Positions 712 through 62,674 of a stretch of 64,000 nucleotides of DNA are shown one piece after another. This DNA is from a virus, in IMG/VR virus record IMGVR_UViG_3300029984_000001, positions 124,001 to 188,000 of that record; one strand, written 5' to 3'. The position numbers and the translations under genes are program-made. Within the stretch, counting starts at the first letter, position 1; every line of letters starts with the position of its first letter. Below the pieces are notes generated by a model. That model saw nothing but the letters and a program-made list of their open reading frames with translations, made no database searches and had not been told where the DNA came from.

Positions 712-2451
712 TTGGATCAATCACTATTAATGAGTGAATATAGTAAGACAAGAGAACAATTCAATCCAAAATTATTTGAGAGAAAAAATGAAACTGTATT
801 TAATCATATATTAAAAGTTTTGAAGTCTGTAGAGAGGGAAGGACAATTTACCTTTAAATTACATTCATATAGGTTAGTTACAAATTATGCAGAGATACAA
901 TCTATATTATGTGACTATGAGAATCTGCATAAGAAAGGAAAGAATAAGAGAAAACTAAACATTTATGAATATATAAATTTAAAAGAAACCGATATGCATA
1001 TATTAATATCAAATTTCTATATGAAAATAAGAGATGAAGAAAAAATCTTAACAATTTATATAGGCATTCCTATCTATATAAACAAATATTATTTTAGAAT
1101 AAGTGGTAATTTATATTTACCTAATTTACAAATAGTAGACGGATCTACATTCAACTCATCAACATCTAAAAATGCAATTTCAGATAGTGTAATATTAAAA
1201 ACTATCTTAATGTCTCTTAAGACTTATAGAAATTCTTATCCTATAAAAACAACAGACGATATTGATATATACATTACTAATTTCTCTATGACTTCTTTCA
1301 GTAAAACTTTTCCTGTATTCAAATATATCTTAGCAAAATTTGGGTTATATAGAACTATGAGTTTTATGAACTTTGATTTTGTCAAAATATCTAAATCAGA
1401 TCCAAAGTATAATGATTATTACACATTCAAAAGTAATAAGATTTATATATCTGTACCTAAAGTATTATTTGATAATGATACAGTACTACAAGCATTTATA
1501 TATACATTATATGTAGTGTTTAAGAACAAACTTACTAAATATGATAATATATTTACTAGAACATTCTGGTTAGAATCATTAGGTGGTGAGTTTGGTAGTT
1601 ATACTAAAAATAAAGGTTTGAATTTATTAGAATCAATAGAAGGTGTATATGATTTAGATACTAAAGAGGCTTTACATTTACCAGAAGAATATAAACAGTC
1701 CGTATATCATATATTAAGATGGATTATAACTGAATTTAGTAATCTAATGGAAAGGGATAATCTTGATTTAGGGTGTAAGAGAATTAGATTAGAAGAATAT
1801 ATGGCATCTCTATATGCAATGAAATTTGCAAGTATAATTCATAGATTTGCAGATCTTGGACATAATCTTGATTTTGAAATAGCAGAAAAATATTTGAGAG
1901 GATTAAAACCTACATACTTACTAGACACAATGATTCAATGTAAATTTATTAATTGTAAGAATACAGTTAACGATATAGATACTTTCCAAGCTATTAAATA
2001 TACAATGAATCAATTACCAGGAATGGATGAAAAACCTAGTAAGAATAGTAAACTACCAGTTATATATAAACATGTACATTATAGTCAATTAGGAAGATTA
2101 GATTTAGATTCATCACCAAAAAGTGCACCAGGAGTTGCTGGTACGTTAACTCCTTATTGTGAATTAGAGGATGATGGTGCATTTACAAATTATAAAGAAC
2201 CAATAACATGGGATAATCAATTCTCTCAACTTATGGCAGATTATAAACAATCTATTGGAATGAAAGAGAATTTCATGATGAGAGAAAAAATATTGGGTCA
2301 AAATGTTAAGAAAGAAATTCAAGAACTTGAATGTTCTATTAAGTCTTATGAAAGTATAATGAAACCTGTACTAGAATTAGAAGCTAGTAAAGATTATTCA
2401 CCAATTATTATACCATTAGATAAAAGTGGGTTGATTTATTATTCACGATAA
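712..2451 (+). CDS. Phage RNA polymerase beta subunit, N-terminal half (split)
   Basis: Probably the N-terminal half of a divergent multisubunit RNA polymerase beta subunit, as in jumbo phages that encode their own split RNAPs. Two blocks support this. Around residues 120-145, IYIGIPIY then YFRISGN resembles the bacterial beta block YIGDIPLM..GTFIINGTER. Around residues 455-490, VHYSQLGRLDLDSSPKSAPG followed by GTLTPY and a DDGAF block resembles [20 protein letters not shown]..INSLA. At 579 aa it ends soon after that block, so the catalytic C-terminal half (Mg/nucleotide-binding regions) must be encoded elsewhere, outside this window. The start is TTG at 712 behind AAGGGGGGAT. Residues near 523 carry the recurrent FMMRE motif. 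Whether it belongs to a virion or non-virion polymerase cannot be told. Confidence 0.7.
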   Translation: MDQSLLMSEYSKTREQFNPKLFERKNETVFNHILKVLKSVEREGQFTFKLHSYRLVTNYAEIQSILCDYENLHKKGKNKRKLNIYEYINLKETDMHILISNFYMKIRDEEKILTIYIGIPIYINKYYFRISGNLYLPNLQIVDGSTFNSSTSKNAISDSVILKTILMSLKTYRNSYPIKTTDDIDIYITNFSMTSFSKTFPVFKYILAKFGLYRTMSFMNFDFVKISKSDPKYNDYYTFKSNKIYISVPKVLFDNDTVLQAFIYTLYVVFKNKLTKYDNIFTRTFWLESLGGEFGSYTKNKGLNLLESIEGVYDLDTKEALHLPEEYKQSVYHILRWIITEFSNLMERDNLDLGCKRIRLEEYMASLYAMKFASIIHRFADLGHNLDFEIAEKYLRGLKPTYLLDTMIQCKFINCKNTVNDIDTFQAIKYTMNQLPGMDEKPSKNSKLPVIYKHVHYSQLGRLDLDSSPKSAPGVAGTLTPYCELEDDGAFTNYKEPITWDNQFSQLMADYKQSIGMKENFMMREKILGQNVKKEIQELECSIKSYESIMKPVLELEASKDYSPIIIPLDKSGLIYYSR

Positions 2452-2457
2452 AAATTA

Positions 2458-2483
2458 GGGTGAGGTTATCCTCATCCTTTTTT
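2458..2483 (+). terminator. Intrinsic terminator
   Basis: GGGTGAGG / CCTCATCC stem with TTAT loop and six T residues, directly after the RNAP beta fragment. Confidence 0.85.
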
Positions 2484-2509
2484 ATATTATAAAAAGGGGA
2501 GTGTATTAA

Positions 2510-2758
2510 ATGGAAAAAACAGATATAGTTTGTTTTATGTTTTCATCTTCACAAAAAGCAATACAAGATAAAATTGCAACTAAACTTAGAAAAACCTATA
2601 ATCTAATAAAAGTAAATGTTAATGGAAAATGGTCAACATCTACAGATATGATTAAAGAATCTGATATGAGCAAGTATAAAGTAAGATTTCCTGATGCACA
2701 ATTAAGAGCTAAAGGGGAATATAGTGAAATGAATTATCAAAAAGGGGGAATCTCATAA
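2510..2758 (+). CDS. Hypothetical protein, 82 aa
   Basis: Not recognised. A small, Lys-rich, soluble protein after AAAAAGGGGAGTG. It follows a terminator, and its stop codon overlaps the start of the next gene (TAATG), so the two are translationally coupled. Confidence 0.65.
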   Translation: MEKTDIVCFMFSSSQKAIQDKIATKLRKTYNLIKVNVNGKWSTSTDMIKESDMSKYKVRFPDAQLRAKGEYSEMNYQKGGIS

Positions 2759-60819: not shown

Positions 60820-61465
60820 TATAATCATTCTCCTTTTCTTTATAAAATATAGAATTTACATATAAACTATTTATTTTATATTCAATTTTAGTGGGTAAAT
60901 ATCTAAGTCCTTTAACCCAATCCCATAATCTGACATACCATTTTATATTCTTATGTAGTAAATGAGATGGATATAAGACCCAATCATATGTAAGTATAGG
61001 AGATCTCAAATTTACATTCACCATTTTTTCATTATCATTAGATTTTTCTATATTACCTAAAGCTCTTAATGAAAATGATGGTTTGATATCATCTTCAAAC
61101 TCTTCAGGGGCATTTAGAATAGCTTCTAAATGTGTATCTTTATCTGAACTTTTTAAAGTTATAGGTGTTTTAATATAACATCCCTTAGGAGAAGGATACA
61201 TTTCTCTTTCATAAAAATCATACATTGTTGTCTTATGATCTCCTCCTTCTATTTTCTCTGATTCTTTAGCAATACATTCTAATACTTCTTGAGGAATTCC
61301 ATTTGTATTTTCCGTAAGTTTTCTCATAGTTTGTTTAAAACTCATTGAGATTCTAGGAGGGTCATCTACATCAAATGGGTATTTACTTTTCTTTTTAAAA
61401 AGCTTTTTAAATTTAGACCATAAAGATAACTTTTGTTTCTGTATTAGATAATCATAACTGTTCAT
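60812..61465 (-). CDS. Hypothetical protein, 217 aa
   Basis: Not recognised. Very basic N-terminus (LWSKFKKLFKKKSKYP), then helical and mixed sequence, aromatic C-terminal third (IKWYVRLWDWVKGLRYLP). RBS GTGAGGA. It follows the DNA polymerase C-terminal gene. Confidence 0.65.
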   Translation of the reverse strand: MNSYDYLIQKQKLSLWSKFKKLFKKKSKYPFDVDDPPRISMSFKQTMRKLTENTNGIPQEVLECIAKESEKIEGGDHKTTMYDFYEREMYPSPKGCYIKTPITLKSSDKDTHLEAILNAPEEFEDDIKPSFSLRALGNIEKSNDNEKMVNVNLRSPILTYDWVLYPSHLLHKNIKWYVRLWDWVKGLRYLPTKIEYKINSLYVNSIFYKEKENDYND

Positions 61466-61505
61466 AGCTTGTCCTCACTTTCTATTTTGTTCTATAAACT
61501 TCATT

Positions 61506-61528
61506 AAAAAGGAGTTTTTACACTCCTC
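61506..61528 (-). terminator. Intrinsic terminator (minus)
   Basis: GGAGTG-TAAAAA-CTCC hairpin followed by TTTTTAATG on the minus strand, after the DNA polymerase exon. Confidence 0.7.
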
Positions 61529-61534
61529 TCTTTA

Positions 61535-62674
61535 TTAGAATGATATTATATTTGTATAATTATTTTGTTTATTACCTCTATATATATTCAGTTGCTCAAT
61601 TGGGAATAAAGATAAAGCTCCATTTATGATTTTATTATAGTCTATAAATTGTACTAAGTATTCTGGTACCTTAGTATCTGATGGAATTGAGATACTTTTA
61701 ATAGAACCTTTATATGTAGTACTCTTTAACATATCTTTCAATTTCTCATATTTAATCATAAGATAATTAGCTTTATTTTTAGACTCAACACTATTATCCA
61801 GACGCAATTCATCTGCTTGTTTCTTTAATTTTTCTATTGTTTTTATATTTATAATCATATCTACTACTTCAACTGCATTAGTTCCTTCTAAATCAAAACC
61901 AACATCATGGTCATCTTTCAATTCATTCCATGTATAAGATGCTTTAACTCCACCAATCCTCATGGGATCAGCATAACCGCTAATTGCTTTGATCTTACGT
62001 GGTTTATACATCTTACGACCTCCAGTTCTTAGATCTTCAAATATTTCTTTTTCAAATATTGCTAAATGTTTTAAAAGAGTAATTTGATCGAAGTTCTCTG
62101 TGTTTAAGACATCTTCATACATAATTTGTTTTAATCTTTTTTGGGTAAATTTATTAGTGATAGATTTTTGCATTGCTAATCCCTTAATATCGAAATAACC
62201 ACCCTTTATTAAATTTCCTTCTTGTATTTCTTGTATAGAAGCATAATTTTTTTTAACACCAGATAACAATATGGTCTTAAATAAGAATTCATTCTTCATA
62301 ACAATAAGACATTCTTTTCCTTCTGCCCATGAGTGAGTATTCTTAGTGTATCTTTCCATATAATCATTAACAAAGTGTGTCAAGCAATAAGACATTATAT
62401 TTATTATAGAATATCTAACCCCTTCTTGTGGAATAACCTTTAAAGGGTTTATCATCTTCTTCATTTGTATTACTTCATCATCATAGAATGAATAATCCAA
62501 TTCATCTTCTACTCTTTCCATAAATTTAATAGGTTTAATAACATCACCAAATTCATCTTCTTTTAGTCTTTCCATGAAATCTATTGGAGTGTGTTTAATC
62601 TTTAAATCCAAATCTTTTATCTTTGTAAGAGAGTATTGATAGAATGGATCTAAGCTCAATATTGAACTATCTGT
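61535..62674 (-). CDS. Family B DNA polymerase C-terminal part, exon 2
   Basis: Continues the reading frame of exon 1 after intron removal. It starts TDSSILSLDPF, completing motif C as DTDS. ECLIVMKNEFLFKTILLSGV then KKNYASIQEIQEG and FDIKGLAMQKS match the KKRY-like DNA-contact motif and the start of the thumb. Two FMxR motifs (DFMERL, KFMERV) lie just after motif C. Reads as 379 residues to the stop. Unspliced, an internal ATG at 62659 would give 374 residues without motif C. Confidence 0.82.
   Translation of the reverse strand, partial: TDSSILSLDPFYQYSLTKIKDLDLKIKHTPIDFMERLKEDEFGDVIKPIKFMERVEDELDYSFYDDEVIQMKKMINPLKVIPQEGVRYSIINIMSYCLTHFVNDYMERYTKNTHSWAEGKECLIVMKNEFLFKTILLSGVKKNYASIQEIQEGNLIKGGYFDIKGLAMQKSITNKFTQKRLKQIMYEDVLNTENFDQITLLKHLAIFEKEIFEDLRTGGRKMYKPRKIKAISGYADPMRIGGVKASYTWNELKDDHDVGFDLEGTNAVEVVDMIINIKTIEKLKKQADELRLDNSVESKNKANYLMIKYEKLKDMLKSTTYKGSIKSISIPSDTKVPEYLVQFIDYNKIINGALSLFPIEQLNIYRGNKQNNYTNIISF

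Follow-up and report, generated by a model that had tools for sequence, protein, structure and literature searches.

Why do unrelated proteins of one phage carry the same few residues, F-M-x-R, in many cases followed by D or E? The question is raised by a stretch of 64,000 nucleotides, all of which was analyzed (the window), at positions 124001-188000 of IMG/VR virus record IMGVR_UViG_3300029984_000001 (263,571 bases, 25.8% GC; here G000). The earlier note on this DNA had considered three roles for the motif, here called a tag and four to six residues long: sorting, docking on one hub protein, or cleavage by a maturation protease. As read from the sequences, our central finding is that the tags of related phages differ in sequence yet occupy corresponding slots of orthologous proteins, and FMxR[DE] is probably a docking tag by which one co-evolving phage-encoded receptor would gather DNA-handling proteins at the phage genome. 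The broader issue is how a phage distinguishes the DNA-handling proteins that belong to it from others, for which nucleus-forming phages show no linear signal (PMC11087766).

G000 is a jumbo phage distantly related to the Bacillus phages AR9/PBS1, with whose DNA polymerase its own shares 29% identity. By AR9 orthology it encodes virion and non-virion multisubunit RNA polymerases and a split family-B DNA polymerase; orthologues were found for two sets of AR9 genes (gp077, gp144, gp188 and gp263; gp088, gp104, gp153, gp225, gp226, gp269, gp131 and gp151). Mechanical gene calling gave 310 open reading frames (ORFs) in the whole record, some possibly with starts too far upstream, and carriers were identified via AR9 orthology and Pfam. 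The records come from metagenomes, several of them being fragments; tags are known in seven near-complete genomes plus fragments, and no cultured member of the tagged clade was found in searches.

The FMxR tag in G000 and its close relative

All 14 FMxR instances counted in the earlier note were present in the window in open frames, 13 of them in ORFs of at least 60 amino acids (aa) and the last in an intron ORF (FMVRD, 63124-63138, minus strand), and D or E followed in eight, as it had said. One ORF start given there differs by 15 bases (41135, not 41150). The note had estimated about one chance hit; 1000 within-protein shuffles of the window gave 0.66 FM.R (maximum 5) against the 14 observed, and 0.10 FM.R[DE] (maximum 2) against eight. 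The comparison of the whole proteome with shuffles, which the note had proposed, showed 41 FM.R in 32 proteins of G000 against 3.3 expected (maximum 11, 500 shuffles), and 22 FM.R[DE] against 0.5 (maximum 3). FM.R ranked first among all three-residue gapped patterns of this proteome, while FL.R, FI.R, YM.R, LM.R and FM.K were at chance level; the wider consensus was [ML]-K-x-F-M-x-R-[DE]. Chance and composition were ruled out for FMxR by these shuffles.

The DNA encoding the motif was then counted across the three sense frames, which gave 41/3/3 for FM.R and 22/0/0 for FM.R[DE], and the codons used in the motif varied (TTT/TTC, AGA/CGT/CGA, GAT/GAA/GAC). The excess in frame 0 together with the mixed codons shows that selection acts at the protein level, and a DNA or RNA motif was thus ruled out. 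The closeness to termini that had been noticed in the window held for the genome: 23 of the 41 FM.R were at most 15 residues away from a terminus (11% in the background), and 73% were at most 40 residues away (29% in the background).

The tag was also conserved in G001, a 94-kb contig whose polymerase is 75% identical to that of G000 and which has 16 FM.R against 1.2 expected. Among 71 reciprocal orthologue pairs the tag was kept in all nine tagged pairs, with no mismatched pair (Fisher p = 1.3e-11). The F, M and R residues were 92% identical between the two phages, in comparison with 54% for the flanks, and in the tail of the DNA polymerase exonuclease half the tags were kept while the linkers between its three copies had diverged. 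The earlier note had staked its proposal on frequency above shuffled expectation and on conservation in orthologues; both were found, so neither ground for rejecting it holds. In an IMG/VR scan for MKxFMxR[DE], the multi-hit contigs among the matches listed were this phage or its close relative, with the exception of one 2,618-aa ORF. AR9 had three FM.R against 2.9 shuffled, and the idea that FMxR is common to AR9-like phages in general was rejected.

The tagged proteins of G000 include four non-virion RNA polymerase subunits (beta-N, beta-C, beta'-C and gp225-type), of which beta-C has three copies at its C-terminus, and both DNA polymerase halves, DnaB, NAD ligase, SbcD/Mre11, an SF2 helicase and a PC4-domain protein. 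The ligase tags lie in the linker before the adenylation domain, and all four intact HNH/NUMOD4-type homing endonucleases are tagged at residues 4-7. Among AR9 orthologues, the tag was present in 14 of 24 DNA/RNA proteins and in none of the 19 for the virion or packaging (p = 2.5e-5). Untagged virion proteins of G000 include the tape measure, the terminase and the subunits of the virion RNA polymerase.

These counts bear on a signal for virion packaging or a head protease. Phage T4 provides a precedent, as terminal tags direct its internal proteins to the head. Such a signal is highly improbable here, however: the absence of tags from the virion/packaging orthologues extends to the RNA polymerase subunits of the virion, there is no need to package a homing endonuclease or ligase, and copies occur in tandem and internally. 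Sorting to the virion, which the earlier note had allowed, is thereby disfavoured. The maturation protease site that it had also allowed is unlikely, because cleavage would achieve little at tags that lie a few residues inside an end or are repeated along tails.

Tags of more distant relatives

In relatives at 37-43% polymerase identity, the polymerase has a tail about as long, in which a different motif is repeated. The dialects besides FMxR are PMxF, PI[ES]F, P[IV][YW]F, YxPF, NPFxH and MCx[IV]. Five patterns were each enriched over shuffles in one genome only: PM[IEVK]F in G005 (10 against 0.8), PI[ES]F in G007 (13 against 0.9), P[IV][YW]F in G009 (8 against 0.4), YxPF in G011 (16 against 5.7) and PF[IV]H in G023 (17 against 0.4). 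The local dialect occurred in the reciprocal orthologues of tagged proteins in G005 (Fisher p = 2e-5), G007 (1.7e-8) and G011 (4.6e-6), whereas the wrong dialects on the same pairs gave p > 0.03, except for overlapping regular expressions.

The slots shared between lineages are the polymerase tail, the beta-C tail, the beta-N C-terminus, the beta'-C end, the ligase linker, the helicase and DnaB ends, the gp241-type C-terminus and the homing-endonuclease N-terminus. In the ligase linker, tags fall at residues 113-162 (113 and 147 in G000, 113 in G005, 122 and 162 in G007, 151 in G009, 120 in G011). The slot of the catalytic DNA polymerase subunit is at residues 389 and 407 in G000 (after joining of its two parts), 376 and 394 in G023, 397 in G024 and 410 in G022. 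Near the C-terminus of beta-N, the orthologues carry PIVF (G007), PVSF (G009), YYPF (G011), PFIH (G023) and MCKI (G022).

The tags of three further contigs, G022, G023 and G024, were predicted. These contigs were reached via a clade-specific 204-aa protein (G000 123337-123951); initial reading was confined to pieces no longer than 20 kb, and the remainder of each proteome was examined after the motif had been chosen from the RNA polymerase tail. The beta-C tails showed repeated PFIH in G023 and VMCK in G022 and G024; NPFxH and MCx[IV] are thus predictions made from a single tail. In the G023 proteome P-F-x-H ranked first among triplets, with 27 against 1.8. In G022, M-C-x-I (16 against 2.5) and M-C-x-x-V (15 against 1.6) ranked second and third after a zinc-finger pattern, and M-C-x-x-V was weaker in G024 (11 against 2.0). 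The orthologue tests, which include the tail from which the motif was chosen, gave p = 1.4e-10 (G023), 2.7e-4 (G022) and 2.7e-5 (G024). Tags of the NPF[IE]H type were found in the G023 ligase (two), both polymerase halves, DnaB, SbcD, helicase (three), beta'-C, beta-N, the gp225-type subunit and, at residue 19, an HNH endonuclease.

In the polymerase tree the eight tagged sequences formed one clade (support 100/100), and the nine without tails lay outside it; MCx[IV] was common to two sister lineages. A single tagged clade with varied dialects suggests one origin of the tag system, after which its sequence was replaced several times in concert.

Scans for terminal patterns yielded no accepted tag-like pattern in AR9 and S6 and no comparable pattern in phiKZ. 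A G013 pattern, MTNEEIEKRFxFD, was rejected as paralogous; G013 (L246-L259) has a large tandem family of small proteins starting MTNEEIEKRFxFDLEMG. MWxW of G024 was likewise a paralogous family, and MKWIM at several S6 ORF starts (L331-L344, first ATG used) is probably leader read as coding sequence. Since such families do produce recurrent patterns, paralogy, chance, composition or a DNA/RNA-level signal had to be weighed for the tags themselves. The likelihood of any of these is practically negligible in view of the shuffles, the frame test, the variety of codons, the unrelated carriers, the conservation and the agreement of predictions with new genomes.

Another reading is a tag for degradation or processing that a protease of the host or the phage would recognise. 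Positions near N- and C-ends would suit such a tag, but internal and tandem copies exist too, a replisome and an RNA polymerase would be unusual targets for a degron, and the dialects shift within the clade, unlike host protease signals. We consider this explanation very unlikely, hardly ahead of virion packaging.

Carriers in the window and candidate readers

The tagged proteins of the window, together with one candidate reader (first line), are as follows.

30-692, plus strand: 220-aa clade-specific protein (G000 gene 124030), adjoining RNA polymerase beta-N, syntenic
712-2451, plus strand: non-virion RNA polymerase beta N-half, AR9 gp104 orthologue; FMMRE at 2272-2286, residue 521 of 579
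3321-3623, plus strand: 100-aa protein; FMQRV at residue 4, 3330-3344
8105-8860, plus strand: 251-aa protein; FMKRD ending two residues before the C-terminus, 8837-8851
14622-15575, minus strand: 317-aa clade-specific protein; FMTRD at residue 5, 15549-15563
39440-39796, plus strand: 118-aa protein; FMVRE at residue 11, 39470-39484
39931-40275, plus strand: 114-aa protein; FMTRE forming the C-terminal end, 40258-40272
41135-41521, plus strand: 128-aa protein; internal FMTRV at residue 68, 41336-41350
44157-46226, plus strand: DNA polymerase exonuclease half, AR9 gp131 orthologue; FMRRI, FMVRD and FMTRN at 45987-46073
61535-62659, minus strand: DNA polymerase catalytic subunit, C part, AR9 gp151 orthologue; FMERL at 62564-62578 and FMERV at 62510-62524
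62986-63150, minus strand: homing-endonuclease remnant, 54 aa; FMVRD at residue 5, 63124-63138

The 251-aa protein had no Pfam or PHROG match. The G005 orthologue of the 100-aa protein has PIKF at residue 10, and the G011 orthologue of the 317-aa protein has YYPF at residue 4. The three tags of the exonuclease half stand in tandem, spaced by 12 residues, within a C-terminal extension that is missing in AR9, SA1, S6 and phiR1-37. A fourth FMxR of this protein, FMSRD at residue 78 (44388-44402), aligns with a segment also found in tail-less relatives and may reflect the fold rather than a tag.

An apparent intron (62660-63378) splits the catalytic DNA polymerase gene. The 54-aa endonuclease remnant inside it, between the two polymerase parts, is 48% identical to a tagged G001 HNH endonuclease and, though decayed, still starts MNKQFMVRD. 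HNH endonucleases of G001, G011 and G023 bear the dialect of their own genome. Two endonucleases of G005 (33266-33874 and 119425-120033, both minus strand) carry PIEF and PVIF, not PMxF, and a recent transfer from a PIxF/PVxF lineage is possible.

Five G000 genes (123337, 124030, 209753, 240662 and 259825) are clade-restricted and near-universal, and are candidate tag readers. The 220-aa protein encoded by 124030 was present in all six near-complete clade genomes examined and not in AR9 or G013; in G023 it has one possible tag. The 204-aa protein (123337-123951; L008:9337-9948) is clade-restricted and syntenic between ligase and RNA polymerase beta-N; its structural model (pLDDT 88) had no match among solved structures, and matched just two uncharacterised phage proteins in BFVD. 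A clade-restricted 260-aa protein (209753-210535; L010:3753-4532), with a Whirly/PUR-like fold model and a disordered tail, is a candidate single-strand binding protein.

These candidates bear on one concrete form of the docking reading, in which the tags dock on a DNA-bound hub, a sliding-clamp-like or single-stranded DNA-binding 'toolbelt' protein, and no compartment is involved. This form is plausible, at somewhat less than an even chance. Clamp-binding motifs are usually conserved and not swapped from lineage to lineage, which counts against it. The carriers (polymerase tail, ligase, RNA polymerase, nuclease, helicases) resemble a list of clamp clients (PMC9690074; PMC2988020 on T4 late transcription), and the 260-aa protein, modelled with a fold that binds single-stranded DNA, is present in six of six clade genomes. 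In T4, DNA polymerase, ligase and late-transcription factors dock on gp45 in this manner. However, no clamp was recognised, although clamp family models were not run, and two modelled candidates had no convincing clamp match; in a jumbo-phage survey, the polymerase type that is probably that of this group is described as having no classical clamp (PMC7824862).

Two other features of the window were observed. Kelch-like repeats (YNGKIYCIGG...NTWTTG) occur in five paralogues, each some 430 aa long (24498-32054), which are possibly variable receptor-binding proteins. The terminase large subunit lies in three pieces on the minus strand (55257-57464, 57872-58102 and 58139-58945) and is probably intron-split; that of AR9 is interrupted too.

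Probable docking at the phage genome and comparison with known systems

The pattern of tags suggests a phage-specific docking or sorting system. A short linear tag would occupy flexible termini, tails and linkers in the non-virion RNA polymerase, in replication and repair proteins and in homing endonucleases; one phage-encoded receptor would bind it and hold or admit the carriers at the site of phage DNA replication and transcription, with tandem copies giving avidity. If the receptor groove changed in a lineage, all tags would change, giving rise to dialects. Concerted replacement at fixed slots in many unrelated proteins is what would be expected if one changing receptor reads them all, and the identity of the carriers points to phage DNA as the site; from this we infer a single receptor, its co-evolution with the tags, and recruitment to phage DNA. 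The sorting signal or hub docking proposed in the earlier note thus fits the non-virion, DNA-handling carriers and the tags that each lineage has of its own, virion sorting apart.

Several points weigh against this reading. The topoisomerase II, UvsX, primase, SbcC and Dda orthologues of G000 are untagged, so the tag is not required for every DNA-handling protein, and part of the tags are internal. The orthologue test was non-significant for the fragments G008, G009 and G010, and G008 had only three PLxF against 1.3 shuffled. The dialects P[IV][YW]F, PVxF, PLxF and PIKF are based on partial genomes, those of G008, G010 and G026 rest on few sites, and the dialects of the first relatives were picked after their polymerase tails had been seen. 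The receptor itself is postulated, and binding and localisation are predictions.

Besides the hub, the other concrete form of the docking reading is a gatekeeper that admits tagged proteins to a non-chimallin replication compartment, the dialects excluding the nucleases of competitors. It is possible, but somewhat less probable than the hub. The N-terminal tags of all four intact G000 endonucleases, and those of G001, G011 and G023 in their own dialects, favour it. For nucleus-forming phages, divergence of import specificity driven by homing endonucleases has been predicted (PMC12908238), and phiKZ and phiPA3 import mostly only their own proteins (PMC11087766). Against it, several DNA proteins are untagged, a compartment in these phages is purely hypothetical, and nucleus-forming phages have no terminal or linear import signal (PMC11087766, PMC13282480), import there relying on surfaces (PMC13282480). 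The sole chimallin model run, PF25677 (Chimallin_Phikzvirus), found phiKZ but nothing in G000, G001, G005, G007, G009-G011 or AR9, several of these records being partial, and the phage nucleus suggested in the earlier note is unsupported in its chimallin-type form. The fuller version, in which the tags are passports to a chimallin-independent compartment with one gatekeeper, dialects arise by co-evolution of tag and reader under inter-phage conflict, and homing endonucleases must gain the local dialect, is rather unlikely as a whole.

The tags would provide a readable short code, with dialects as ready cognate and non-cognate controls, so that peptides could serve to test how phage proteins are targeted, how receptors co-evolve and how phages compete with one another through homing endonucleases. 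We know of no phage parallel to the concerted replacement of a tag in about ten proteins. No publication on short linear motifs of jumbo phages came up in a literature search, most subscription journals and preprints being outside its scope.

Among known systems, sliding-clamp motifs (the PIP box, the beta-clamp motif and the gp45-binding C-termini of T4) are likewise short, hydrophobic and located in tails or linkers, and here too polymerase, ligase, nuclease and RNA polymerase carry the motif. The consensus [ML]-K-x-F-M-x-R-[DE] differs, however, from QxxL/MxxFF and QLxLF, and, unlike clamp motifs, the tags vary in concert between sister lineages and occur on homing endonucleases. Should the reader prove to be an ordinary replication hub, this would be a new form of clamp-type docking, not a new kind of system. 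The capsid-targeting sequences of T4 are also a short terminal address on several unrelated proteins, but these are virion proteins, which are untagged here. AR9/PBS1-like phages have the same polymerase, ligase, helicase and split virion and non-virion RNA polymerase genes, but AR9 lacks an FMxR excess and the polymerases of AR9, S6, SA1 and phiR1-37 have no tag-bearing tail. The import system of Chimalliviridae (ChmA, PicA/Imp1) resembles the present one in its cargo of non-virion RNA polymerase, helicase, ligase and endonucleases and in its phage-specific discrimination; it works without a linear signal, whereas linear tags are abundant here.

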